From NCBI RefSeq assembly GCF_023715605.1, contig NZ_JAMBOL010000038.1, positions 1 through 32,627 on the forward strand: a DNA stretch of 32,627 nucleotides, given 5' to 3'. The position numbers were made by a program, and so were the translations under genes. The notes beneath the pieces are model-generated. The model saw only the letters and a program-made list of their open reading frames with translations, was not told the origin of the DNA and did not search any database. Below are positions 989-24,235 of the stretch, one piece after another. Positions within the stretch are counted from its first letter, which is position 1. Each line of letters starts with the position of its first letter. Source of the stretch: Halalkalibacter oceani (GTDB lineage: Bacteria; Bacillota; Bacilli; Bacillales; Bacillaceae_D).

Positions 989-2209
989 TTGAAGCGTATA
1001 GCGATTTGGATGATGTTGGCAGTGTGTTTCTTGATGGTGGTGGCAGCCCCGGTTCAAGCAGCGCCGCAGACAGCGGTGGATATCGTTATTGATGGGGAAG
1101 AGGTCATTCTCCCTGATTCCGCTGCTGCCTTTTTGGAGAGCAACCGGACATTTGTCCCTGTCCGCGGTGTATTTGCCCATCTCGGCCTAGAAATTAAATG
1201 GGATCAGGATTCGCAAACTGCGACAATTAGTGGAGACGATGTAACGATTGAGATGAAGCTTGGAGAAAGTCAGGTACAGGTGAATGGTCAGGCGACCGCG
1301 ATAGACAGTCCTGTCATGATGAAGGAGAGTCGTTTGTTTATCCCGCTTCGTTTTGTTGTCGAGCAAGCTGGCTTTGAGGTGAAGTGGAATCAGGAGGAGC
1401 ACACGGTCTATTTGGAAACTCCAGCGCTTGGCGAAGAGCTGACGGATACCGCAGCCTTTTTGCAAGAACTGATTGCGGCCGGGCAACAATTAACGAGTTA
1501 TTCAGCGGAAGTGGATATCGAGCAGGCAATGAGCATGGCCGATGAAAATATCGAGATGGATATGAGAATGCAAATGGATATGGTCACGGATCCACTGAGC
1601 TTTTATCAGCATATGACGATGGAAATGGAAGAATTAGGGGAAGCGGTTAGCTCTGAAGCATATTTTACGGAGGACGGTTTCTATTCCTATGATTCGATGT
1701 TTGATCAATGGATCAAATATGATGAGGATATGTATGAAAGCATGATCGGACTTTCTGAGACTCAGCTCGACCCGGTCGCCCAGTTTGAGCTGATGGAAGC
1801 ATATATCGAGGATTTAAAAGTATATGAGCAGGAAGATACGTACGAGATGCATTTTAATGTGTCGGGAGAAGGCTTTCAGGAACTGCTGGAGCTGATTCTG
1901 AATATGTCTGAGCTCGGTTTGGATGAGGAATTGCTGGAGGATCTTAACCTTGCTATTCATATTGATGAAATGTCCATTGTGACGACGCTTGATAAAGAAA
2001 CGCTCTACCCGCTATCGGAGCAAATGGAATCCGACTTAACCATCACAGTGGAAGGGGAAGAGATTGCAATCAGGCAGAAAGCTGATTCCACCTATTCCAA
2101 CTTCAACAGCTTAAGTGAAATCAATATTCCACAGGAAGTCATTGATTCTGCGATTACGTTTGATGAATATTTGGAGCAAATAGAAATGGACTACGAGGAA
2201 GCGATGTAG
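989..2209 (+). CDS. Secreted stalk-domain protein with LolA-like C-terminal region
   Basis: The chosen start is the TTG at 989, preceded by AGTAGGAG at 7-base spacing. An in-frame ATG at 953 lacks a ribosome site and would place charged residues before the signal peptide. The signal peptide ends around VQAAPQ. Residues about 20-135 form a two-repeat stalk module (older name: copper amine oxidase N-terminal domain), shown by NRTFVPVRGVF, LGLEIKWD, SRLFIPLRFV and AGFEVKWN. The remaining 270 residues are very acidic, rich in Met and Glu, and look like the DUF6612/LolA-like lipoprotein fold (SYSAEVDIEQ and many alternating strands), possibly binding a hydrophobic ligand. There is no amine-oxidase catalytic domain. 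It is the first of six stalk-domain genes and has its own terminator. Confidence 0.85.
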   Translation: MKRIAIWMMLAVCFLMVVAAPVQAAPQTAVDIVIDGEEVILPDSAAAFLESNRTFVPVRGVFAHLGLEIKWDQDSQTATISGDDVTIEMKLGESQVQVNGQATAIDSPVMMKESRLFIPLRFVVEQAGFEVKWNQEEHTVYLETPALGEELTDTAAFLQELIAAGQQLTSYSAEVDIEQAMSMADENIEMDMRMQMDMVTDPLSFYQHMTMEMEELGEAVSSEAYFTEDGFYSYDSMFDQWIKYDEDMYESMIGLSETQLDPVAQFELMEAYIEDLKVYEQEDTYEMHFNVSGEGFQELLELILNMSELGLDEELLEDLNLAIHIDEMSIVTTLDKETLYPLSEQMESDLTITVEGEEIAIRQKADSTYSNFNSLSEINIPQEVIDSAITFDEYLEQIEMDYEEAM

Positions 2210-2221
2210 TTTTCACAAAGA

Positions 2222-2265
2222 AAAAAGCTGTGCCGGTTTCTCACTAACCGTTGGCACAGCTTTTT
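2222..2265 (+). terminator. Rho-independent terminator after the first stalk-domain gene
   Basis: Arms AAAAAGCTGTGCC and GGCACAGCTTTTT enclose an 18-base loop that itself contains GGTT/AACC, and the second arm ends in a T run. It starts 13 bases after the stop codon. The A-rich left flank means it could also work from the opposite strand. Confidence 0.9.
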
Positions 2266-2290
2266 CTAGTTTAGTTGAATCTGTGAAGGG

Positions 2291-2378
2291 ACGTCGGCTG
2301 CGCGCGTTACACGCAAGTCTGAAAGAAGACCACTTTCAGACTTGCTCAAAAGACAGTAACGGCGGCTCCGCACGACGT
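2291..2378. repeat. Long imperfect palindrome with three nested arm pairs
   Basis: ACGTCG at 2291-2296 pairs with CGACGT at 2373-2378, GTTAC at 2306-2310 pairs with GTAAC at 2356-2360, and the perfect 13-base arms GCAAGTCTGAAAG at 2313-2325 and CTTTCAGACTTGC at 2333-2345 surround a 7-base loop. Neither side has a T run, so it is not a standard terminator. It lies between two convergent genes, each with its own terminator. It could be a mobile miniature or REP-like element or a structured RNA. Confidence 0.6.
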
Positions 2379-2382
2379 AATA

Positions 2383-2407
2383 AAAAAAGCCGCTGTGCGG
2401 CTTTTTT
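2383..2407 (-). terminator. Terminator of the two-module stalk-domain gene
   Basis: The stem AAAAAAGCCGC / GCGGCTTTTTT has a 3-base loop (TGT). It overlaps the stop codon of the minus-strand gene by two bases, and on that strand the stem is followed by a T run. The symmetry also allows use from the plus strand. Confidence 0.85.
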
Positions 2408-4304
2408 AACGGATTGTTTCGATATATAAGGCGACTGGGAGGGCGGCTCCGCCGGCATGCATAATCTCAACAGTGATTTCATCCGTTCCCGGTTCGACGC
2501 GGTAATCGATTAATTCCACATAATCCTGGTTTGGCTTTAAGGTTGGAATTAAATGACTTTCTCCATTTACTTTAATCGCTCCACTGTAGAGACCACCGCG
2601 GCCGGTTGCTTTCAGGCGAACCGTTGCTGCTCGAGATGTCTGATTGACGAGTGGGATCGTCACATGATAAGTCATCCCGAAATGGCCTGGGTTGCCAATT
2701 GCCCCATTTGTTGTCGACAGGGAGTTCTCCGCTGTCAACAGGTGGTCGCTGCGGCCGTTTGAAAGATTATAGCCTTGTTCAACAGAACCGATTGTATATT
2801 CCGGTAATGTCGCGGCAAGGTCAGACGCAGGCCATGCCCCGCGTGGGTGAGCGGCGTATGGATTAATCTGGATTGGTTCAGTGCGAATGGAGGTCAGGTC
2901 CTCAAACTCACTTAAAACCGTACGGATAATGTACTCGTCATCACCTGAAGTTTGGACGGTGAAATCATTCAGGAATCCGACAATATACCGCGGATAAAGC
3001 TCAAATTCGTCAATGATCGCCGTTTCACCCGGTGCAATCGTCAAGCCCTGACTGCTCTTTGTTTGCTGTCGGTTGTTTAGAACGCCATCAGCAATCGGTA
3101 ATCCAATGTCATAGTTGACCCAGCTGTTGTTGCTTTTCTTTACGATCCCGCTGGAAGCTGGAATAGTCAGTGACTCGGTTTCAGATGTATTCTCAATCGT
3201 AATCCCGATATTAACCTTTGTCCCTAACTGATTTAAATGCCAGCCGAACACACGGTGGTCGTTCTGCTCTTTATCCGGTGTCACCCGTTGCTCTGACAGT
3301 GTCAGGCGCGGAGCCGGCGGAATCAAAGATGGTGTCAATGTTTCCGGGTTATCGCTGACCAGCAGCTGGCGGTCGCCTACTAATTCAGCTTCCGGGACTA
3401 AATCGGGAACACGCAGGCTGCCTTCCTGTTTAGGGAGGAACTCACTGCTGAACATAAATTGATTCAAATAAATATAAATTTCATTCGTATCACTGCGGAA
3501 ACGCAGATTCCCTCCTAAGGCATTGACGATGAAGTGGACAGGCACATACATTTCATTGCCGACAAGAAATGGGACTTCATTTGATGCAGTCGGTTCCTGG
3601 TTGACCAAAATATTGCTTTGGTTGTTACGGAACGTAAAGACAAGACCTTCAATCTGAAGCTCGACTGTTTGCGAGTCAAGCCATTGAACGGATGAGTTTT
3701 CCAAGTAATTATAGAAATACTTCGCTGGAATATAGTTACGGCCGTTGCGAATGATCGCCGATTCTTCCATTTGAATTCGCTGATTGTTTAAATGCAGCGT
3801 ATAAGGCTCACCGCTGACAGGTGGCTGGCTTGAACCTGTCGTTGAAATCGTAATTAGTTGAGCCTGATGGTTGTAGTTAACAGTGCCGTCAAAGTTTTCG
3901 ATGACAAAACGTAACGGGACGTATGTACGGTTCTTGTACATAATTGAAGGGGCCGTTAACGCCACCCGCTGATTATTTACCCGAGCGGAACTTGAGTTGA
4001 TCGTTAATTCAATCGTCGTTCCGTTTTTGATCGCTTTGGCCGTTTGCGACGCTTTATTCCATTCGATTTGGGCGCCGACAGCTTCATAGAGCGCTCTCAT
4101 TGGTAAAAGCGTGTGACCATTTTTATTAAGAATCGGATCCGAAAGCTGTAATCTGGACCCATTGAGCATGATTGTCATATTGTTTTTCGTATATAAATCT
4201 CCCTGGACGTGAGTGGCTGCCAGTGCTTGTCCTCCGTTAACAGACAAGCCCGTCGTTGTAATCAGAGTCAAAGCCATTAAAACAGTAAATAAACGTTTGA
4301 GCAT
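2406..4304 (-). CDS. Secreted protein with two tandem stalk modules and an unknown C-terminal half
   Basis: The start is the ATG at 4304, with AAGGAG seven bases upstream and a clear signal peptide (MLKRLFTVLMALTLITTTG ... ALAATHV). The frame is open 71 codons further upstream, but that part is AT-rich and has no ribosome site. Residues about 35-155 form stalk module 1 (GHTLLPMRALYEAVGAQIEWN, NRTYVPLRFV). Residues about 165-275 form a more divergent module 2 (GRNYIPAKYFYNYL, EMYVPVHFIVNALGG). The last 350 residues have no motif I recognise. They are Asn/Thr-rich and predicted to be beta-sheet, with phrases such as NIGITIENTSE and YHVTIPLVNQTS suggesting immunoglobulin-like or other adhesive beta domains. 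There is no catalytic signature. It is probably a surface-exposed structural or binding protein, and it is last in a minus-strand run of three stalk-domain genes. Confidence 0.85.
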   Translation of the reverse strand: MLKRLFTVLMALTLITTTGLSVNGGQALAATHVQGDLYTKNNMTIMLNGSRLQLSDPILNKNGHTLLPMRALYEAVGAQIEWNKASQTAKAIKNGTTIELTINSSSARVNNQRVALTAPSIMYKNRTYVPLRFVIENFDGTVNYNHQAQLITISTTGSSQPPVSGEPYTLHLNNQRIQMEESAIIRNGRNYIPAKYFYNYLENSSVQWLDSQTVELQIEGLVFTFRNNQSNILVNQEPTASNEVPFLVGNEMYVPVHFIVNALGGNLRFRSDTNEIYIYLNQFMFSSEFLPKQEGSLRVPDLVPEAELVGDRQLLVSDNPETLTPSLIPPAPRLTLSEQRVTPDKEQNDHRVFGWHLNQLGTKVNIGITIENTSETESLTIPASSGIVKKSNNSWVNYDIGLPIADGVLNNRQQTKSSQGLTIAPGETAIIDEFELYPRYIVGFLNDFTVQTSGDDEYIIRTVLSEFEDLTSIRTEPIQINPYAAHPRGAWPASDLAATLPEYTIGSVEQGYNLSNGRSDHLLTAENSLSTTNGAIGNPGHFGMTYHVTIPLVNQTSRAATVRLKATGRGGLYSGAIKVNGESHLIPTLKPNQDYVELIDYRVEPGTDEITVEIMHAGGAALPVALYIETIR

Positions 4305-4538
4305 GTGTGATCTCCTTATTTTTAAAAGCATTTTCCGAACAATCCCATAATAACACATAAAAATTAGGAGATATATAGAAAAAAATGTGTCTTTTGAGGA
4401 ATTTCTACAGATTGAGACAATTGTCACGAATTGTGTAAAAAATTTTAAAAGACTGTTTCCCTCTCCCCTTACCGTGTCATCTCGAAAAAGTCGGTTCTCC
4501 TCTTTTTGAACGACCATTAGTTGGAAAAAGTTTCACCA

Positions 4539-6176
4539 TCAGTAAAAATATAAAACACGTCCGCGTCCCCAATCAACTTTCGCTTCCAACGCCTCGGAAA
4601 TAAAGCGGAGCGGGACAAGAGTACGCCCATTTTCAATCGTGGCCGGGACATCAAGGCTGACGAGCTGTCCATTGACATAGGCCTGTTTGGAGTTCAGTGT
4701 CATGACAATTTCCGTACCCGGGGCCCGTCCTTCGATCCTTTTCGCCGCAGCGTCCCATTTCAGCTGAAGGCCGGCTTCTTCAAAGAATGAGCGGACAGGT
4801 ACGAGCATTCTCCCATTACGAATAACCGGGCCGACGCGATCAAACGTCAGCAGCTGCTGGTCGAGTGCTGCTTTCATTTGCTGGCTGTCGCTCCGTTTCA
4901 CGCGTGAGATGTGAGTCGAGATCAACGCCAGAACATCGGTTGAAACAAACGTTTTCCCGTTTTCGTTAAAGAGTTGAACTTCGTTTGTCAGCTCCCGGCC
5001 ATTAAAGAACAGTCGTCCGGGAAAAGGCGTAACGTTGATTCGCTTTTTTGCGCCATTCAGATGGGCACGTTTTGTATAAGCTGACTGTAAAAGGTTTCTC
5101 GTATCAACATATCGCTGATTTCGTTCACCTCTTAAGATGACGGTAACATAATCATGGTCATTCGAGCTGGCAAAGCTGACAAGATTGTAGCGCGAAGCAC
5201 TTGTATAGCCCGTCTTGCCGCCGGTCACGGTCGCCGTAAAATAAGGCGAATCAGTACGGATCAAAGAATTGGAATTTCTCCACGTCTTTGCTTTTGCCGC
5301 CCCGTTTGGCCCGCGGTAAGAAGCATAGTAACTTGGGGCGCCGACAATTTTCATAAAAAGGGGAGATGCGGCTGCTTCCTTGGCGACTAATGCGAGATCG
5401 GCAGCGGTCGTATATTGATTCGGATGGTGGTACCCATGTGAGTTGACAAAATTCGTCCGCGTCATGCCAAGCTCCCTCGCCCGGGTGTTCATAAGCTGGA
5501 CAAATTGCTGTTCAGAGCCGGCGATAAGTTCGGCGATCGCGACTGCGGCGTCATTGCCGGATGGAAGCATCATCGCATATAGCAGCTGCTCAAGCGTAAG
5601 ACGGTCGCCCGGTACTAGTCCCGCTTTAGAGCTATCATGGGGGACAGCGGCCGCACGGGGGCTGACGGTGACAAGCTCTTGCAGCTGACCGCGTTCAATC
5701 GCGAGCAGGGCAGTCATGATTTTCAGCGTGCTGGAGGGATAAAGGCGCTGGTTCGCATTTTTTGAAAAGACAGGCAGCGCCGCGTCATCCTCAAGCATAA
5801 CACTTGCCTGAGCGCCAATCTTCGGATTAATGCGTAGCTGCTCGGCTGCAATCGTGGCGTCTTTCGGAAGTGCACCCTCTACTGTGACAGAGCTGTTGAC
5901 AGTCGGCGCGCCATCGAGATGAAGATCGGCTCCCTGCTGACTTAGCGTTAGCCCAAGTATCGAGGCAACGTCTTCAACCGGGAGAAAGGCCTGTTGTTTG
6001 TAAGTAAGGAGCGGGCCATTCCCTTTTGATTCAACCCCCTGGAAATGGTAATAGTAGGATTCTTCATAAACCTGGATTTGCTTTGGTTCCTGAAAGGCGG
6101 CTGCCGTGGCCGTTGCAAGGCCGGGCAGCTTTATCAATAATAGAATCATGAATGTCAGCATACTTTTTTGAAACAT
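4539..6176 (-). CDS. D-alanyl-D-alanine carboxypeptidase (S11) with C-terminal stalk module
   Basis: The start is the ATG at 6176 behind GGAGGAG, and a signal peptide of about 27 residues follows. The penicillin-binding peptidase domain (residues about 110-365) has all three active-site motifs: S149-T-L-K152, S206-G-N208 and K321-T-G323. It should remove the terminal D-Ala from peptidoglycan stem peptides outside the membrane. PBP5-type enzymes normally end in a beta domain plus an amphipathic membrane anchor. Here the C-terminus (residues about 385-545) is instead a stalk module (GRMLVPVRSFFEEAGLQLKWD, GRTLVPLRFISEALEAKVDW). A degenerate half module also precedes the catalytic domain (QAFLPVEDVASILGLTL, residues 62-78). 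It lies 71 bases downstream of the M14 peptidase gene with no clear terminator between, so the two are probably co-transcribed. Confidence 0.95.
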   Translation of the reverse strand: MFQKSMLTFMILLLIKLPGLATATAAAFQEPKQIQVYEESYYYHFQGVESKGNGPLLTYKQQAFLPVEDVASILGLTLSQQGADLHLDGAPTVNSSVTVEGALPKDATIAAEQLRINPKIGAQASVMLEDDAALPVFSKNANQRLYPSSTLKIMTALLAIERGQLQELVTVSPRAAAVPHDSSKAGLVPGDRLTLEQLLYAMMLPSGNDAAVAIAELIAGSEQQFVQLMNTRARELGMTRTNFVNSHGYHHPNQYTTAADLALVAKEAAASPLFMKIVGAPSYYASYRGPNGAAKAKTWRNSNSLIRTDSPYFTATVTGGKTGYTSASRYNLVSFASSNDHDYVTVILRGERNQRYVDTRNLLQSAYTKRAHLNGAKKRINVTPFPGRLFFNGRELTNEVQLFNENGKTFVSTDVLALISTHISRVKRSDSQQMKAALDQQLLTFDRVGPVIRNGRMLVPVRSFFEEAGLQLKWDAAAKRIEGRAPGTEIVMTLNSKQAYVNGQLVSLDVPATIENGRTLVPLRFISEALEAKVDWGRGRVLYFY

Positions 6177-6247
6177 AATAGACTCCTCCCGAGTAGGCAC
6201 TATGTTGTTTTTCTCTTATTCTGTTAATCCATAATTCTGCATTCCGC

Positions 6248-7639
6248 TTATTCAGTGGAAGAGGTGGTGATCCGGACCGTCTGTTCCTTCGACTGCCATT
6301 CGACTTTGGCGCCTAGCGCTTCGGCGATAAAACGGACCGGGACATAGGTGCGGTTATCGACCAACAGTGCCGAAACATCTAGCTCAACTCTTTCCCCGTC
6401 AAGATAAGCGTAGGGACGGTGAACCGGCAGACGAATGCTCTTTTCACTTGATTCAATCTGTACTTCGCGATTGGCGCTGTTCCATTTCACCGAGGCGCCA
6501 AGCCGTTCGAAAATGCTACGTAATGGCACAACGGTGCGATTTTGAACCGTAAATGCGCCTTCAGCAAGAGCGATCCGTTCTCCATCAACTTCAATCGAGA
6601 CAGGAGAAAAGGTATTGCGCAGTCTTGTTTCGAACATTTTCTGGCTTTCACGGGCAACATAAAGGCCGACAAGGCGGTTTTCCTGCCAGATGCGATCAAA
6701 ATTGGCGAGCGGGACGTTGGTCGCGCCGACATACGGTGACACTTCCGGCGTAAAGGCCGGCTTTTTGTATTGTTGAATAAACCAGTCCGTATAGCCGCCA
6801 CCGCCTGTTGCGCCGGGTTCTCCCATCAGACGGTAGCCGGTCATTTGCGACAATGCCCGGGCATGAGTGCGGTCACGGATCAGCTGGGCGCCCTGCTGAT
6901 GGAAATTCCAGAAAAGAATTTGTCCGCTGCTGTGATAGGAGACAGCCATTTCCGGACGAATCTCCTCCGTCAGCTCTAAGACAGCTTTCACCTCAGAAGC
7001 GCTGTGAGGGGTTTTTCCTTTATAGTTGGCGAAGCTCGGACCTCCCGGGCTGTTCGCGAGATTGTTCCAGTTCGCGTTGAATTGCCGGTTCAAATCGACT
7101 CCTTTGCCGTTTGCCTTCCAGCGTTTAAAGTTCGAACTGTTTTGATTCATGACCATAACAGAAGCCACCTCACCTTGAGGGACGCTGGTCAAGCCTTGCT
7201 GCTGAATCATCACCCCGTCGGGATTAAGCATCGGCACAAACCAGATACGGTGTTTATCAAGCAATGTTTTTACATCGTAGCCGCCGATGGAGCGGCGCTG
7301 CTGATACGCTTGGGCATATTGATCAATCATATACATGGTTAAATTAGTCGTGATCCATTCGCGGGCATGGTTGGAGCCGTTTATGTAAGAAGTAGACATG
7401 CCATTTCCGAGCGTAATGGCATAGATCGGACGACCGAATTCGCTTGTGCCGATCACATGGTATTCAATTAAATCAGGATATCTTTCAGCAAGTTTTTTCA
7501 TATCTCGTTCCATTTGTGCATAGGAATAGACTTGCTTAGGATTCACGATGGAAGCTTCGGCTGAAAATGGAGGAAAGAACAGAAGGAAAGTGAATATACT
7601 GGTACCAATCAGTGAGAAGAGATGTTTGCGAGCTGTCAA
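6248..7639 (-). CDS. Secreted M14 zinc carboxypeptidase with C-terminal stalk module
   Basis: The start is a TTG at 7639 with AAGGA upstream. The signal peptide ends near AEAS, residue 30. The M14 domain (residues about 35-335) keeps the zinc ligands H91 and E94 (HAREW) and H236 (SYHSSG), the substrate-binding N184-R185 (DLNRQFN) and the catalytic E299 (FTPEVSP). M14 enzymes of Bacillus include gamma-D-glutamyl-diamino acid peptidases acting on peptidoglycan or spore peptides. The exact substrate cannot be read here. Residues about 345-458 are a full stalk module (NRTVVPLRSIFERLGASVKWN, NRTYVPVRFIAEALGAKVEW). It is the first gene of the minus-strand run and is divergent from the CAP-domain gene. 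The shared module and neighbours suggest action at the cell wall. Confidence 0.93.
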   Translation of the reverse strand: MTARKHLFSLIGTSIFTFLLFFPPFSAEASIVNPKQVYSYAQMERDMKKLAERYPDLIEYHVIGTSEFGRPIYAITLGNGMSTSYINGSNHAREWITTNLTMYMIDQYAQAYQQRRSIGGYDVKTLLDKHRIWFVPMLNPDGVMIQQQGLTSVPQGEVASVMVMNQNSSNFKRWKANGKGVDLNRQFNANWNNLANSPGGPSFANYKGKTPHSASEVKAVLELTEEIRPEMAVSYHSSGQILFWNFHQQGAQLIRDRTHARALSQMTGYRLMGEPGATGGGGYTDWFIQQYKKPAFTPEVSPYVGATNVPLANFDRIWQENRLVGLYVARESQKMFETRLRNTFSPVSIEVDGERIALAEGAFTVQNRTVVPLRSIFERLGASVKWNSANREVQIESSEKSIRLPVHRPYAYLDGERVELDVSALLVDNRTYVPVRFIAEALGAKVEWQSKEQTVRITTSSTE

Positions 7640-7690
7640 ATTATGTCACGTCCTTATCTCAATCTGTCATAGTTGAAAACTATTTGTAGA

Positions 7691-7717
7691 GTAATAGCAA
7701 TCATTGGCAGAAGTCAA
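7691..7717 (-). promoter_or_regulatory. Weak candidate promoter for the M14 peptidase run
   Basis: On the minus strand TTGACT (7712-7717) and TATTAC (7691-7696) are separated by only 15 bases. The spacing is short and the -10 is imperfect, so this is a candidate only. It lies 52 bases before the TTG start, in the divergent region 7640-7870. No clear plus-strand promoter was seen in that region. Confidence 0.25.
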
Positions 7718-7870
7718 TGTTCCATTTTGACTAAATCGCGAGAAAACTACATAAAATGCCGAAATTTTTGTTTCTTTTACGAATCATAGGGGAATGGAAA
7801 TAGTAAGTAGGAAAGTGAAACATGGACGGCGAATGAATCGTTAGATTGTGAGAATACAGGAGGGGATGGG

Positions 7871-9187
7871 ATGAAATGGTGGAATGTCGGAGTCGGCGCG
7901 ATGATTCTCTGGCTTGGACTGTTAGCGACACAAACAGTTGCGGCGGCTGAACAGCAGATCAGTGTTTACATAAATGAGCATCCCCTCGAACTTGAGCATG
8001 AAGCGGTGATGAAAGACGGGGTTACGTTTGTCCCGCTGAGAGACGTCATGCGGGAGCTTGATGCCGAGCTGAGCTGGGAGGCTGAAACCGACACTGTTTT
8101 TATTAAGAAAAACGGGCAAACGATTGAAGTCCCTGTCGGCAAAAGCTATGCGGTTGTGAATGGAAAAAAGCAATTCCTGCATGCTCCGAGCTTTCTTACC
8201 GATCAGACGGCGTATGTTCCCGTCCGCTTTGCTTCGGATATTCTTGGAGCGAAGGTGAAATGGGAGAAGGAGAAGCAGGCTGTGTTTCTTTCAACGGCAG
8301 AGCGGCTAACCTTTGTAGCGGAGCAGACGATCGCTCCTGAACCGCGAGTTGCTTCCTTATGGCTTGGTGATTCGCTTGAAAGCGTGCAGGAGCAGCTTGG
8401 GGAGCCGCTGTCAACAGTAGCCAGTGCCTATTCCTTTGACTGGAATATTTATCAGCTGGCCGATTCCTCTTATCTTCATGTCGGATTGGAGGAGGGAAGT
8501 GTTGTTGCCTTCTATACGAATACAAGCCGGCATGTAACCGGCCTTCCCTTTATCGATGGAATGAGACGTGAACAGATGCTGGCCGACTTCGGGGAGGAGC
8601 GACTCGGAGAGCTTGAGAAGAAAGGTAGCGTCTTCCGTTATGAAGGAAAGAAAGAGTGGGATTTATTTCAGACCGACGATGCTTTTTACACGCTTTTTTA
8701 CGATCAGCTTAAAGGAGGGGCCGTCACTGCGGTTCAAATTATCGCCAAGGATGTAGAGCTTGCTCATGACAGCTATTTCGGCGAGCCGACGGAAGAGCGG
8801 CGAGCTGATTATGAGAAGCATCTGTTTTACTTGCTTCAAGGTGTCCGCCAGCGGGAGGGTGTACCGCCGTTAATGTGGGACGATGAGGCCGCGCAGCTGG
8901 CGCGTAAGCATAGTGAGGATATGCAGGAGAATCAGTTTTTCAGTCATACGAACCTGGATGGTCTGTCTCCTTTTGACCGCTTTGACCGTGAAGGAATTGC
9001 CTTTTATCAAGCCGGGGAAAATTTGGCGGTCGGTCAGTTTCACCCGATCTTTGCCCATGAAGCGCTGATGAATTCAGCCGGACATCGACGCAATATGCTG
9101 GCGCCGGGCTTTGAAAGGGTAGGCACAGGAGTTGCCTTTCTGGGAGAAAAGCCATATTATACTATTAATTTTTATACACCATTATAA
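7871..9187 (+). CDS. Stalk module plus CAP-associated and CAP (SCP/PR-1) domain protein
   Basis: An ATG follows CAGGAGGGG closely, and the signal peptide ends around VAAAEQ. Residues about 27-140 form a stalk module (GVTFVPLRDVMRELDAELSWE, TAYVPVRFASDILGAKVKWE). Residues about 160-295 resemble the CAP-associated N-terminal domain of Bacillus YlbC/YkwD-type proteins (LWLGDSLESVQEQLGEP, repeated at GLPFIDGMRREQMLADFG). Residues about 308-438 are the CAP domain (REGVPPLMWDDEAAQLARKHSEDM, FSHTNLDGLSPFDRF, AGENLAVG, SAGHRRNML, YYTINF), with the family's His and Glu cavity residues present. Bacterial CAP proteins are secreted and their molecular role is mostly unknown. The gene is followed after 39 bases by the L,D-transpeptidase gene with no terminator between, so they form an operon. 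Confidence 0.93.
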   Translation: MKWWNVGVGAMILWLGLLATQTVAAAEQQISVYINEHPLELEHEAVMKDGVTFVPLRDVMRELDAELSWEAETDTVFIKKNGQTIEVPVGKSYAVVNGKKQFLHAPSFLTDQTAYVPVRFASDILGAKVKWEKEKQAVFLSTAERLTFVAEQTIAPEPRVASLWLGDSLESVQEQLGEPLSTVASAYSFDWNIYQLADSSYLHVGLEEGSVVAFYTNTSRHVTGLPFIDGMRREQMLADFGEERLGELEKKGSVFRYEGKKEWDLFQTDDAFYTLFYDQLKGGAVTAVQIIAKDVELAHDSYFGEPTEERRADYEKHLFYLLQGVRQREGVPPLMWDDEAAQLARKHSEDMQENQFFSHTNLDGLSPFDRFDREGIAFYQAGENLAVGQFHPIFAHEALMNSAGHRRNMLAPGFERVGTGVAFLGEKPYYTINFYTPL

Positions 9188-9226
9188 AAAAAAGAGAGAC
9201 ATAGAGAGAAGAAAGAAGGGGTCAAT

Positions 9227-10465
9227 TTGAAAAAATGGATATGGGTGCTATTGCTCGCACTTGCATGGATGCTGCCTCAAGAAGCTGAAGCGGCGTCATC
9301 AGGACAGTTGATTATTATTAATAAGTCAACAAACGAACTAGCATTCTTTGAAAATGGTGAACTCGTACGGACTTTTCCGGTTGCCACTGGGAGGACGTTA
9401 GCACTGACACCGGAAGGACGGTTTCCGATCGTCAATAAAATTAAAAACCGGCCTTACTACACAGATGGAATACCGGGCGGTGATCCGCGCAATCCACTCG
9501 GCGACCGCTGGCTTGGTCTTGACGCCCGGGGAACATACGGCACAACCTATGCCATCCATGGAAACAATAATGAACAGTCGATTGGCAAATATGTCAGCGC
9601 CGGCTGTGTGCGTATGCATAATAAGGACATTCACTGGCTATTTGAAAAAGTGAAGCTGAAGACGGACGTCCTCATCGTTCAATCATCGCGCTCCTTTGAG
9701 GAGCTTGCTAGGTTGAATGGCTATCAACTGGTGCCGCCGATCAGCGTATATGTCGACGGGAAAAAGCTGGCTGTCAGTCAGGATCCGTTCATGAAAGACA
9801 ATCGTGTCCTCGTGCCGATGCGCTCGATCTTCAACGCTTTAGGAGCGTCGGTAGCGTGGAACGCGCAAACGAAAACGGTGACAGCGACAAAGAACGGACG
9901 GAAAATCGAACTGACAATTGATTCAAAGCGGGCCAAAATTGACGGCCGGACGCATATGCTTGATGTCGCTCCGACCATTTCCGGCCAGCAAACATTTGTC
10001 CCGACACGCTTCGTCAGCGAAGCTTTAGGGGCTTCTGTGAAATGGGACGGAAAGAAGCGGATCGTCTCGCTTCTGTCACCGGCAAAGCCAGCCCCTCAGC
10101 CGGATCCGGCCACGCCGGCCAAGACACCGATCAAGGTTACGGTTAATGGTCACCAGGTGGAAGGAGATGCCTTTATTTTGGACGGTGTCTCAATGGTGCC
10201 GATGCGCCAAATTTTCGAATGGCTTGGCGTCCCGTTTTCTTATGACGCCGCTTCGGCCACTGTCCGCGCGTCTCACCAAGGAAAGAGCCTGACGGTGTCG
10301 GCTGGTAATTCCGCGGCAGTCATTAACGGGGCGAAAACGACGCTGCCCCAGTCACCGCTTATTGAAGCCGGCAGATTATACGTCCCGGCCCGCGTCGTCA
10401 CCGAAACATTTTCCGGCAGTATCCGCTGGGATGGAAGCACTCTTCATATTACAGTGAGACAGTAA
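9227..10465 (+). CDS. L,D-transpeptidase (YkuD) with two C-terminal stalk modules
   Basis: The start is a TTG at 9227 with GAAGGGG upstream, and the signal peptide ends at AEAA. The YkuD catalytic domain follows directly (residues about 25-153), with the motif H111-G and S124-A-G-C127-V-R-M; Cys127 is the nucleophile. Such enzymes make 3-3 peptidoglycan cross-links or attach proteins to the wall. Residues about 170-285 are a well-conserved stalk module (NRVLVPMRSIFNALGASVAWN, QTFVPTRFVSEALGASVKWD). After a Pro/Ala linker (residues 287-303) a second, more divergent module runs to the end (VSMVPMRQIFEWLG, RLYVPARVVTETFSG). YkuD enzymes often carry LysM for wall binding. Here the stalk modules sit where LysM would be, which suggests a targeting role. 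Confidence 0.95.
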   Translation: MKKWIWVLLLALAWMLPQEAEAASSGQLIIINKSTNELAFFENGELVRTFPVATGRTLALTPEGRFPIVNKIKNRPYYTDGIPGGDPRNPLGDRWLGLDARGTYGTTYAIHGNNNEQSIGKYVSAGCVRMHNKDIHWLFEKVKLKTDVLIVQSSRSFEELARLNGYQLVPPISVYVDGKKLAVSQDPFMKDNRVLVPMRSIFNALGASVAWNAQTKTVTATKNGRKIELTIDSKRAKIDGRTHMLDVAPTISGQQTFVPTRFVSEALGASVKWDGKKRIVSLLSPAKPAPQPDPATPAKTPIKVTVNGHQVEGDAFILDGVSMVPMRQIFEWLGVPFSYDAASATVRASHQGKSLTVSAGNSAAVINGAKTTLPQSPLIEAGRLYVPARVVTETFSGSIRWDGSTLHITVRQ

Positions 10466-14550: not shown

Positions 14551-14609
14551 AGCGACTGTAATAACTGCCCCCTTTCGATTCATAAGATGTATCAAAAAGG
14601 GTGAAATCT

Positions 14610-15875
14610 GTGACGATCCATATCGTGCAAGAAGGGGACTCATTGTGGAAGCTTTCACGACAGTACGAAGTGACGATTGACGAAATCAGCGCGGCGAATG
14701 GACTGACTTCCTCCCTGCTTATGCCAGGTCTGGCTCTTTATGTGCCGGACCGTGTTTTGACAAATCGTCTTTACCGGATTCAGGAAGGGGACCAGTTTTG
14801 GTTGCTGGCAAGGCAATTTCGTACGACGGTGACGGCCATCCGCGCGGCCAATCCGGCGTTAGACCCTTACCGCTTACCGGTGGGGGAGACGATGATCATT
14901 CCCTCTCCCCTTTTGCCGGAGATGGTAACGGTCGGCTTTATCGTGCCCTATTCGATTGAACAGTTTCTCGCTTCTTTGGAAGGGTTTGCAGAGCAGCTGA
15001 CGTATGTAGCGGTTGCCTCGTATTCGGTCACGGAAGAAGGCGAGGCTTATGTTTTGCTGGCGGATGACATGATTCCAGAACGGAGCCGTCAGTTGCAAGT
15101 TACGCCATTGCTGATGATTCGCAACATTATGGCTGATGGGACGTTTAACCCGGAGCTGATTGGCGTTGTTCTTGGAAGTGCTTCTATGCGGCGCCGTCTC
15201 ATCGCCTCGCTATTGGCCTTCGTAACTGAAAAAAACTATGGCGGCGTCAGTATTGATTTTGAATTTATTCCTCCTGGTCAGCGCAATGATTTTGTTATCT
15301 TTCTCCGCGAATTGAAGCAGGCATTAGGAGCGTTGCTTCTGCATGTCAATGTTCATTCGAAAACGGCTGACATTCCTGATAATCCGATTATTGGCGCGTA
15401 CGACTACCGGGCGATCAGTCAGGAGGCTGATATTGTCGCTGTGATGACGATGGATTACGGCTATCCGGGAGGCCCTCCCAATCCGATAGCGCCGATTTGG
15501 TGGGTCGATGAGGTCATTCGCTATGCGTTAACCGAGATTCCGGCAAATAAATTGCAAATTGCCTTACCGCTCTATGGGTATGACTGGCTGGAAGGGACAA
15601 ATGAATCAAGCGGCCTGTCCGCTCTCGGGGCGCAAAATCTTGCTCTCGACAGAGGGGCCGTGATTGAGTTCGATATGACCGCGCTCTCCCCGCATTTTGC
15701 ATACTGGCAGGAAGAAGGGCGTCATCTTGTCTGGTTTGAGGATATTAGAAGTTATGTTAGTAAATATCAGTTAGTGGATCTCTACGGGCTTCTCGGCGTT
15801 ACATTTTGGGAAGTAAGACTGCCTTTTCCGCAAAATTGGGCCTATATGAAGCAGCATATAATGGTTTTAAAGTAG
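14610..15875 (+). CDS. LysM-GH18 cortex-lytic-type glucosaminidase (YaaH/SleL-like)
   Basis: Two LysM repeats (residues about 2-47 and 54-100; HIVQEGDSLWKLSRQY and YRIQEGDQFWLLARQF) precede a glycoside hydrolase family 18 domain (residues about 105-421). The active-site motif is GGVSIDFEFI, with the Asp-Phe-Glu pair containing the catalytic Glu. ALPLYGYDW and the WWVDEV segment also match. YaaH/SleL proteins bind peptidoglycan through LysM and are N-acetylglucosaminidases that degrade cortex fragments during germination. There is no signal peptide, as expected for spore-coat-located members. I chose the GTG at 14610 (AAAAAGGG at suitable spacing) over the GTG at 14601, which lies within the ribosome site. 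A weak sigma-E-like CATAAGAT occurs at 14581-14588, but this is not firm. Confidence 0.92.
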   Translation: MTIHIVQEGDSLWKLSRQYEVTIDEISAANGLTSSLLMPGLALYVPDRVLTNRLYRIQEGDQFWLLARQFRTTVTAIRAANPALDPYRLPVGETMIIPSPLLPEMVTVGFIVPYSIEQFLASLEGFAEQLTYVAVASYSVTEEGEAYVLLADDMIPERSRQLQVTPLLMIRNIMADGTFNPELIGVVLGSASMRRRLIASLLAFVTEKNYGGVSIDFEFIPPGQRNDFVIFLRELKQALGALLLHVNVHSKTADIPDNPIIGAYDYRAISQEADIVAVMTMDYGYPGGPPNPIAPIWWVDEVIRYALTEIPANKLQIALPLYGYDWLEGTNESSGLSALGAQNLALDRGAVIEFDMTALSPHFAYWQEEGRHLVWFEDIRSYVSKYQLVDLYGLLGVTFWEVRLPFPQNWAYMKQHIMVLK

Positions 15876-23047: not shown

Positions 23048-23127
23048 AGTTTCCTGTAATTCCCTGGCGAAAATCCGACTAATTTCCCGTGTGAATTTAT
23101 TTCCCGTGCAATATTATGACGATGTAT

Positions 23128-23146
23128 GACATTGCTTGTCAATGTC
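23128..23146. promoter_or_regulatory. Inverted repeat upstream of the SLH gene
   Basis: GACATTG (23128-23134) and CAATGTC (23140-23146) form a perfect dyad with a 5-base centre, 31 bases before the TTG start. It could be an operator. No partner regulator is evident. Confidence 0.35.
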
Positions 23147-23176
23147 GTAAGTCCACTGAGGGAGAAGGGAAATAAA

Positions 23177-24235
23177 TTGAAAAAAATTGGGGCATGGGTG
23201 TTGGCGAGTATCCTTGTTATCGGCGGATTTTCAGGAGGTACGCCGGCTTTAGCAAAAGAAGAAGTGAGAACGGTGGAAAGCTACATTCTTGAAGATATTT
23301 GGGAGCATTGGGGCTTTGAAGAGCTTGATGACCTCGTCAATGCCGATATATTTAAAGGATTTCCAACGGGAGATGATGAGTATTCGTTTAAGCCTGATCA
23401 TCTTATCACGAGAGCGGAGTTCGCTGCGATCATCGTGAGGGCGCTTGACCTGCAGGCGACGGGAGAGGGAGAACGCTTCGACGATATCCCGGTGACGCAT
23501 AGCCTTCAGGCTGAAATCGCGATAGCAAGCGATCATGGAATTATTGAAGGTGTCGGCGCGGGCCGTTTCGCCCCGAATGAGCCGGTGCTTCGTGAGCAAA
23601 TTGCGGCGATGATCGTCCGCGCCTTTTCAGATACGGTTTCATTTCCGGCAGAGGGGAGTCAGTCCTTCCATGATGTCGCGTCAGATCATTGGGCTGCTCC
23701 ATCCATTGCGAAAGCGGCTGGCGCTGAAATCGTCCGGGGCATCACTAGCACGCAATTCGGCTTCAATAAAAAGGCAACAAGAGGTGAGGCTGGAGTCATG
23801 CTGCACCGGGCTCTCCAAAAGGAAACGAGTAACCTGCCAAATGCGAACGAGCTGATGCAGATTGTCAAGGACAGTGAGGTGGAAAGCTTTCCGCTTTTTG
23901 AACAAAAGGATGCTTCGGGCTTGCTGAGCCATAATAAGAAGTATTTGACTGGTTACCAAAAAGCATTGGCCGATGATTTGGCGATGTGGTATTTTGACGA
24001 TGAGACGACAGAAACGATGGCCTTTGCAGCAGAGCCGAAACTTGAAATGAAGCAGAGCAGCAACCGCTTTGCGCGAGTTTCGTTGCAGGGCGAGTTGAAT
24101 GTTCGCTATCAAGACCGGACGACGATTATCGAAACGACGATTGACTATCATCCGGTTTATTATCTGAAGAAAACAGACGGCATATGGAAGATTTATTATA
24201 GCGATATGCCGCTTGAATTTGAAGCATTGTCATAA
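23177..24235 (+). CDS. S-layer-homology (SLH) surface protein
   Basis: The TTG at 23177 has AAGGG nine bases upstream, and the signal peptide ends at ALAKEE. Three SLH repeats cover about residues 35-215: DDLVNADIFKGFP with ITRAEFAAIIVRAL, HSLQAEIAIASDHGIIEGVG with LREQIAAMIVRAF, and HWAAPSIAKAAGAEIVRGI with ATRGEAGVMLHRAL. Three SLH repeats bind pyruvylated secondary cell-wall polymer, so the protein is attached to the wall. The last 135 residues (LMQIVKDSEVESFPLF ... YYLKKTDGIWKIYYSD) have no catalytic motif and may be an NTF2-like fold, judged only from the closing strand pattern. The gene is single and has its own terminator. Confidence 0.92.
   Translation: MKKIGAWVLASILVIGGFSGGTPALAKEEVRTVESYILEDIWEHWGFEELDDLVNADIFKGFPTGDDEYSFKPDHLITRAEFAAIIVRALDLQATGEGERFDDIPVTHSLQAEIAIASDHGIIEGVGAGRFAPNEPVLREQIAAMIVRAFSDTVSFPAEGSQSFHDVASDHWAAPSIAKAAGAEIVRGITSTQFGFNKKATRGEAGVMLHRALQKETSNLPNANELMQIVKDSEVESFPLFEQKDASGLLSHNKKYLTGYQKALADDLAMWYFDDETTETMAFAAEPKLEMKQSSNRFARVSLQGELNVRYQDRTTIIETTIDYHPVYYLKKTDGIWKIYYSDMPLEFEALS

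Follow-up and report, generated by a model that had tools for sequence, protein, structure and literature searches.

OlpC of C. thermocellum carries a copper-amine-oxidase-like domain for which binding to secondary cell wall polymers is reported, and which is called a cell-surface-binding module (PMC4582956, citing Pinheiro et al.). Here, we describe modules of the corresponding family, PF07833, in six consecutive genes at positions 989-10465 of a 32,627-base contig of Halalkalibacter oceani (NZ_JAMBOL010000038.1; the whole contig is called the window), and refer to them as stalk modules and to the six genes as the array. As far as the available texts on OlpC and ScaG go (PMC4582956, PMC3413522, PMC11557425), the likeness lies in the PF07833 or copper-amine-oxidase-like naming of the module, in secreted surface proteins and in a wall anchor other than SLH, reported there and probable here. 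The difference is that theirs displays cohesins for cellulases, whereas the array, known from sequence alone, would carry wall-tailoring enzymes in six consecutive genes of alkaliphilic bacilli.

A second point of comparison is provided by the SLH-anchored surface proteins of A. pseudofirmus OF4 and the region around its csaB gene (PMC5938343), with which the array shares its chromosome region, the interleaving of SLH and stalk genes, and wall enzymes with either anchor. The csaB mutant of OF4 is reported to form chains, with disturbed peptidoglycan and alkali sensitivity, and its authors seek an SLH hydrolase; the Discussion of that paper defers to future work the question of which wall hydrolase explains the chaining. 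In its available text the 2018 work differs in that it tabulates SLH proteins, and the term “amine oxidase” is absent from its main text in a term search. PF07833 joined to wall hydrolase domains is also described from the surface proteome of Desulfotomaculum reducens; the available text of that description includes no cluster, anchor swap or csaB link (PMC4137172). Finally, dimerisation of a superoxide dismutase from Paenibacillus is attributed to a PF07833 domain (PMC10432803), and the N-terminal domain of the Paenibacillus lautus Cu/Zn enzyme (PDB 8IMD) is a PF07833 relative (1.1e-5), which differs in dimerising a secreted-type enzyme with about 75 residues per chain.

We consider it probable that the array belongs to a surface locus of alkaliphilic bacilli linked to csaB, and that its wall-tailoring enzymes are held non-covalently on the secondary cell wall polymer. 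The modules, catalytic motifs, secretion signals, conserved clustering, anchor swaps and genome-level association with SLH and CsaB on which this reading draws are observed directly.

Six consecutive secreted stalk-module proteins

PF07833 was matched above its curated cut-off in all six genes, with eight modules in total (Pfam E-values across the six proteins of 2.8e-31, 7e-46, 3.3e-36, 3.7e-33, 1.4e-28 and 6.7e-63), and the remaining listed open reading frames (ORFs) of at least 90 amino acids between 989 and 10465 all overlap the array genes. The uninterrupted run of six secreted stalk-module proteins that an original prediction had described from the sequence was thereby borne out, as were its placement of the module, which precedes the rest of the protein in the products of genes A, B and E (DUF6612, double-module and CAP) and is C-terminal in those of C, D and F, and its statement that two proteins have extra modules.

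Gene A, 989..2209, + strand: secreted protein with a hydrophobic N-terminus, a stalk module at 1088-1411 and then DUF6612 (Pfam).
Gene B, 2406..4304, - strand: secreted protein with stalk modules at 3846-4166 and 3471-3794 and a C-terminal region (Pfam).
Gene C, 4539..6176, - strand: predicted S11 D-alanyl-D-alanine carboxypeptidase (PF00768, 6.6e-49) with a C-terminal stalk at 4557-4865.
Gene D, 6248..7639, - strand: predicted M14 zinc peptidase (PF00246, 2.5e-40) with a C-terminal stalk at 6269-6589.
Gene E, 7871..9187, + strand: stalk at 7967-8287, then CAP_assoc_N (PF14504, 3.5e-24) and CAP (PF00188, 5.3e-17).
Gene F, 9227..10465, + strand: predicted YkuD L,D-transpeptidase (PF03734, 1e-26) with two C-terminal stalks at 9749-10069 and 10142-10456.

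For three genes the mechanical ORF is longer than the likely gene: that of gene A runs from 953, with a likely TTG start at 989; that of gene B (703 amino acids) extends to 4517, with a likely ATG start at 4304; and that of gene C extends to 6200, with a likely start at 6176. The window's genome has 18 PF07833 matches in 16 genes, eight of the matches inside the array, and about 3e-12 runs of six stalk genes would be expected by chance if 16 such genes were spread over a total of about 4,470, a figure estimated from genome size. As the strands run +, - - -, + +, the array is not a single operon. A hydrophobic N-terminal stretch was detected in all six proteins by a hydropathy test. Simple pattern and hydropathy tests found neither a lipobox nor an LPXTG motif in them, and no further segment resembling a membrane span; at an E-value of 0.01, Pfam matched SLH in none of the proteins.

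By domain family, the clear enzymes among the six are the S11, M14 and YkuD proteins only. In gene C the SxxK (S157, K160), SxN (S214, N216) and KTG (K329-G331) columns, the S11 D,D-carboxypeptidase motifs, are invariant in four aligned sequences, and the best solved relative is DacB (3mfd). Residues H91, E94, H236 and E299 of gene D are invariant in five aligned sequences and correspond to the HxxE, distal His and catalytic Glu of the M14 zinc peptidase motif; a match to MpaA was weak and under the NCBIfam cut-off. Gene F, with YkuD (2mtz) as a solved relative, has an invariant H111 and SAGCVR (124-129) among four aligned sequences, in keeping with the YkuD L,D-transpeptidase motif, (S/T)xGCxR with its catalytic Cys and an upstream His. 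The best solved relative of gene E is an SCP-domain protein (4ifa). For gene B, Pfam found no second known domain besides the stalk modules, and its AlphaFold model was poor (mean predicted local distance difference test score, pLDDT, of 55, below use for structure search).

The claim of different enzyme domains throughout the array consequently stands for the S11, M14 and YkuD proteins and not for the CAP, DUF6612 and double-module proteins, and the domain of gene A that had been called LolA-like is Pfam DUF6612, a family of unknown function. That all catalytic domains fit peptidoglycan chemistry holds for genes C and F and is likely for gene D; it is unproven for A, B and E.

Alternation of stalk and SLH domains

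Close relatives of the gene D peptidase without a stalk were found in five genomes of the family (G004, G006, G012, G016 and G017). By Pfam, the M14 protein of G006 (H. alkaliphilus, L060) carries SbsC_C and three SLH domains, those of G004, G016 and G017 carry SbsC_C, and that of G012 carries seven PG_binding_1 domains. In the tree of M14 domains the seven stalk-M14 domains of the family form one clade (95/96) with the five stalk-free ones outside it, and the stalk-M14 domains of Rossellomorea and Bacillus pinisoli also fall outside this clade; the anchor has therefore changed at least twice. Three of the five (G004, G006 and G012) are members of the same genus as the window, so the M14 gene does not follow genus.

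Two further kinds of protein show the same exchange. An Amidase_3 protein carries a stalk in the window's genome and in its orthologues in G007, OF4 (G043; gene at 3424309-3426024) and G044, and three SLH domains in G006 and G020. Over the catalytic part, each of these four stalk amidases shares 54-57% identity with the SLH amidase of G006. The CAP_assoc_N-CAP protein of G020, which together with that of G042 made up the stalk-free CAP relatives scanned for domains, carries three SLH domains (Pfam). Wall or surface proteins of three kinds (M14, CAP and amidase) thus carry a stalk in some cases and SLH in others, and the alternation is not exclusive within a genome. Among the YkuD relatives, three SbsC_C domains were found in G004 (one of two copies scanned).

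This alternation suggests, at the level of sequence comparison, that the stalk is a swappable anchor for wall enzymes at the cell surface, a role we assign because relatives replace it with SLH, because OlpC provides a precedent, and because no other retention signal was found in the six proteins. The wall-targeting function that had been put forward for the module is accordingly supported as its likely role, by the anchor swaps and by analogy with OlpC.

A passive spacer or solubility domain, in proteins that are merely secreted and whose clustering marks a region gathering surface genes, is an improbable account of the same data. It draws on the predicted fold of the module: one stalk module of gene F was modelled with a pLDDT of 94.7, and its best PDB matches were to E. 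coli amine oxidase, in the D1 domain (root-mean-square deviation 1.3 Å over 74 columns, E 3.5e-5), so that it is predicted to have the D1 “stalk” fold of an enzyme that is not known to be wall-bound. The match of this model to 8IMD in Foldseek was weak (E 0.83). The region also holds many SLH genes, as expected of a gathering place. The exchange of stalk for SLH on three wall or surface protein kinds, and the failure to find another retention signal in the six proteins, speak against a mere spacer and for the anchor.

Elsewhere in the window's genome, a protein combining NEAT with a stalk module is encoded on contig C80 (L041, 4003-4875), and the genes after it resemble those of the window for an iron-siderophore-type binding protein and a FecCD permease; it is perhaps a stalk-anchored protein for haem or iron capture.

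Association with SLH proteins and CsaB

Genomes of the family were counted as stalk-rich with at least nine PF07833 matches and as SLH-rich with at least 14 SLH matches at 1e-10, and the association statistics for family and phylum ignore descent. Seven of the 41 family genomes are stalk-rich, the other 34 having at most two PF07833 matches. All seven are among the 11 SLH-rich genomes, and none of the 30 others is stalk-rich (naive Fisher p 1.5e-5). CsaB exceeded the TIGR03609 cut-off in exactly these seven of the 41 genomes, with 302-316 bits (naive p 4.4e-8), while the SLH-rich but stalk-poor genomes G005, G006, G016 and G020 have divergent CsaB homologues of 161-177 bits, far below that cut-off. 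There may be two kinds of S-layer pyruvyl transferase in closely related species. Two stalk-rich genomes outside the family, in the set of 40 relatives, are likewise SLH-rich. The idea that SLH and stalk exclude each other between genomes was also considered, and the opposite was seen, all stalk-rich family genomes being SLH-rich.

The association is accompanied by physical linkage. In all six stalk-rich relatives (G002, G007, G022, G023, G043 and G044) csaB shares a contig with the stalk cluster, gene trio or M14 gene, at a distance of 36-112 kb; in the window's genome csaB is on a separate contig (C46), and we infer the linkage there from H. oceani G007. In OF4 the csaB match spans 3415258-3416163, in agreement with primer coordinates given in PMC5938343, the stalk trio spans 3452195-3457047, and SLH and stalk genes are interleaved from about 3.42 to 3.51 Mb. 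Stalk genes are concentrated in stretches of 75-91 kb, with 9 of 14 in G007, 7 of 9 in G043 and 12 of 14 in G044; union bounds under random placement are 4e-10, 1e-8 and 7e-16, respectively, for stretches picked post hoc. In G006 the M14-SLH gene lies 18 kb from the divergent csaB homologue, and in G020 the CAP-SLH gene lies about 1.3 kb from it, each with an SLH amidase nearby. Among the SLH genes of G020, about 13 kb from the csaB homologue, there is also a SecA-family protein of 787 amino acids (L194, 1367-3730), possibly an accessory SecA2.

Across a phylum sample of 398 genomes, 334 of which have a PF07833 match, CsaB exceeded the cut-off in 167 of 187 genomes with at least seven stalk matches, compared with 116 of 211 with fewer; these stalk counts rest on the best approximately 11 candidates per genome, and the CsaB-positive total is 283 or 284 genomes. 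The phylum-wide link between stalk and CsaB is a trend and not a rule. A strict requirement for CsaB across the phylum was not upheld, 20 of the 187 stalk-rich genomes being exceptions, 13 with a weaker match and seven with none at 1e-10.

These seven genomes without a CsaB match lend themselves to a different explanation: the modules would attach straight to peptidoglycan or to some other polymer of the wall, independently of CsaB and the S-layer, and the association with SLH and CsaB would reflect shared inheritance of one surface locus. The related loci carried by the seven family genomes and the PG_binding_1 domains on the M14 protein of G012 are in line with it, whereas the OlpC domain is reported as a binder of secondary wall polymer (PMC4582956), and the four SLH-rich, stalk-poor genomes have the divergent CsaB only. 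We regard CsaB-independent binding as possible, though doubtful; it shares the anchoring part of the reading we prefer, so that our confidences in the two are not exclusive.

Conservation of the cluster

All six genes occur in identical order in H. oceani G007 (L051), with 81-95% identity and a conserved downstream flank, and in H. nanhaiisediminis (G002, L052), with 50-75% identity and a different downstream flank; the comparison covers the downstream side, since the window, a complete contig with nothing upstream of position 1 in view, begins near the array. The trio E-D-C is adjacent in A. pseudofirmus OF4 (L054), A. marmarensis (G023, L055) and G044, where gene A lies 13-22 kb farther on, with gene B additionally present in G044. 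In H. urbisdiaboli (G022, L053), gene D, a short stalk-CAP gene and genes A and F lie inside 14 kb. Full-length stalk-M14 was counted in seven of the 41 family genomes, stalk-S11 in six, full-length stalk-CAP in six and stalk-YkuD in four. Gene A is present in all seven stalk-rich family genomes, including the window's, and gene B in four of the seven, as judged for the relatives from fetched stretches and from side matches of another profile search in place of a family-wide search for A and B. The search for PF07833 over related genomes thus shows conserved clustering within the family rather than scattered genes that never co-occur.

The stronger claim, that the six act as one team, is not supported by this pattern. 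The complete set is found in three of the seven family genomes with stalk-M14; members are absent singly, stalk-YkuD from three Alkalihalophilus genomes (genus g6) and stalk-S11 from H. urbisdiaboli; and in Rossellomorea aquimaris and B. pinisoli (two of 12 loci in a profile scan of genome contigs) stalk-M14 has no other stalk gene within 10 kb on either side. At the order level, stalk genes are scattered in stalk-rich G031 (26 matches) and G038 (19). The solitary stalk-M14 and the scattered genes speak against the cluster as a general rule beyond the family.

The same losses bear on the proposal that stalks are assembly modules pairing together, which would place the six proteins in one complex anchored via one member or none. 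Dimerisation by the Paenibacillus superoxide dismutase domain lends it a precedent, as do the full order kept in three genomes and the adjacent trio in three more, but an obligate complex would not be expected to lose members singly or to combine slots with distinct, old lineages, and the swaps go to SLH and PG_binding_1, which are wall binders by family. We judge such a complex improbable and retain wall anchoring as the preferred role.

Descent of the modules

A tree was built of 72 modules, each spanning the greater part of the model and taken from the retrieved stretches of the seven stalk-rich genomes and of Rossellomorea and B. pinisoli. Slots A, B1, B2, C and E each lie on one side of a branch and span genera, while D requires three changes and F1 and F2 two each, for a total of nine slot changes against 37 genome changes, unslotted modules excluded. 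The tree rests on 107 columns, too few to resolve many of its forks, and the deep joins are unsafe on account of long branches. Judged from it, the module slots seem to predate the separation of the genera.

One could suppose that a single stalk gene was recently duplicated on the spot, with domain shuffling, to give the six, and that their grouping is functionally meaningless. The adjacency of the genes alone would favour this, and the check for local duplication that had been suggested did not bear it out: recent duplication is rejected because modules cluster by gene slot across genera and not by genome. We give this origin a very low probability; an ancient duplication may have taken place.

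Proposed mechanism and points against it

Under the preferred reading of non-covalent wall anchoring, each array protein would be secreted and then retained in the wall via its stalk module or modules, which would fill the role of the SLH domains in sister proteins. The most likely ligand would be the secondary cell wall polymer, probably in a CsaB-dependent form. From the observations above we infer that, once bound, the S11 enzyme would remove terminal D-alanine, 3-3 cross-links would come from the YkuD enzyme and, probably, stem-peptide cleavage from the M14 enzyme, with the CAP, DUF6612 and double-module proteins as accessory members; cooperation among them in the cell would be a further step.

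Several observations weigh against this reading. The YkuD relatives in G001, G010 and G012 carry five Y_Y_Y repeats, and for the CAP_assoc_N-CAP protein of G042 Pfam found no anchor domain. Contig C46 of the window's genome has a 358-amino-acid frame that is matched by both SLH and CAP, and A. pseudofirmus OF4 additionally has an SLH amidase (table in PMC5938343); with both anchors on one enzyme kind in one genome, the stalk is not a plain SLH substitute. The eight array modules have isoelectric points from 4.4 to 10.3, and a single common ligand is therefore a poor fit. No NCBIfam model scored above its own cut-off for any of the six proteins, and the nearest solved relatives of gene D are carboxypeptidase T and digestive types. 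To these are added the 20 phylum genomes without CsaB above the cut-off, and one shared inherited locus, which may explain much of the family association with SLH and CsaB.

A more specific and speculative proposal, which we hold at low confidence, is that the stalk reads a chemical mark placed on the secondary wall polymer by canonical (TIGR03609-type) CsaB. CsaB would then retain two classes of protein, SLH and stalk, the latter carrying wall-remodelling enzymes, and the defect of the OF4 csaB mutant would come in part from lost stalk enzymes (amidase, M14, S11 and CAP), which lie outside the SLH set in the available table of PMC5938343.

Neighbouring genes and other features

The Y_Y_Y L,D-transpeptidases (L122, L123 and L124) come from three genomes of the window's genus having one or no SLH match. 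The region between the divergent genes D and E is as follows.

Divergent intergenic region, genes D/E, 7640..7870, no strand: no sigma-70-like site in the scan; one terminator-like site at 7702-7719.

In the same scan, 17 sigma-70-like sites were counted against a shuffle mean of 10.3 and eight terminators against 11.4, and neither count was used as evidence. Upstream of the array, a small putative lipoprotein is encoded at 130-594, with a lipobox-like start by eye and no Pfam or NCBIfam match. A protein with two LysM domains and GH18 lies 4 kb downstream of the array (14601-15875) and is presumably of the spore-cortex type by its architecture. The same contig encodes a 369-amino-acid protein (23126-24235) with three SLH domains and no further Pfam match at 0.001.

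Implications

A stalk-anchored wall-enzyme cluster or an alternation of stalk and SLH was not found in the open PMC literature, in titles and abstract starts among the matches listed. The conservation of the cluster, the alternation of anchors and the genome-level association are new, and the wall-binding role of the module has precedent. PF07833 is very common, yet its name refers to an enzyme that these proteins are not, and the alternation with SLH gives many proteins annotated with a “stalk domain” a testable function. Candidates are also named by the locus for the wall hydrolase that would explain why the csaB mutant of OF4 forms chains and has disturbed peptidoglycan.

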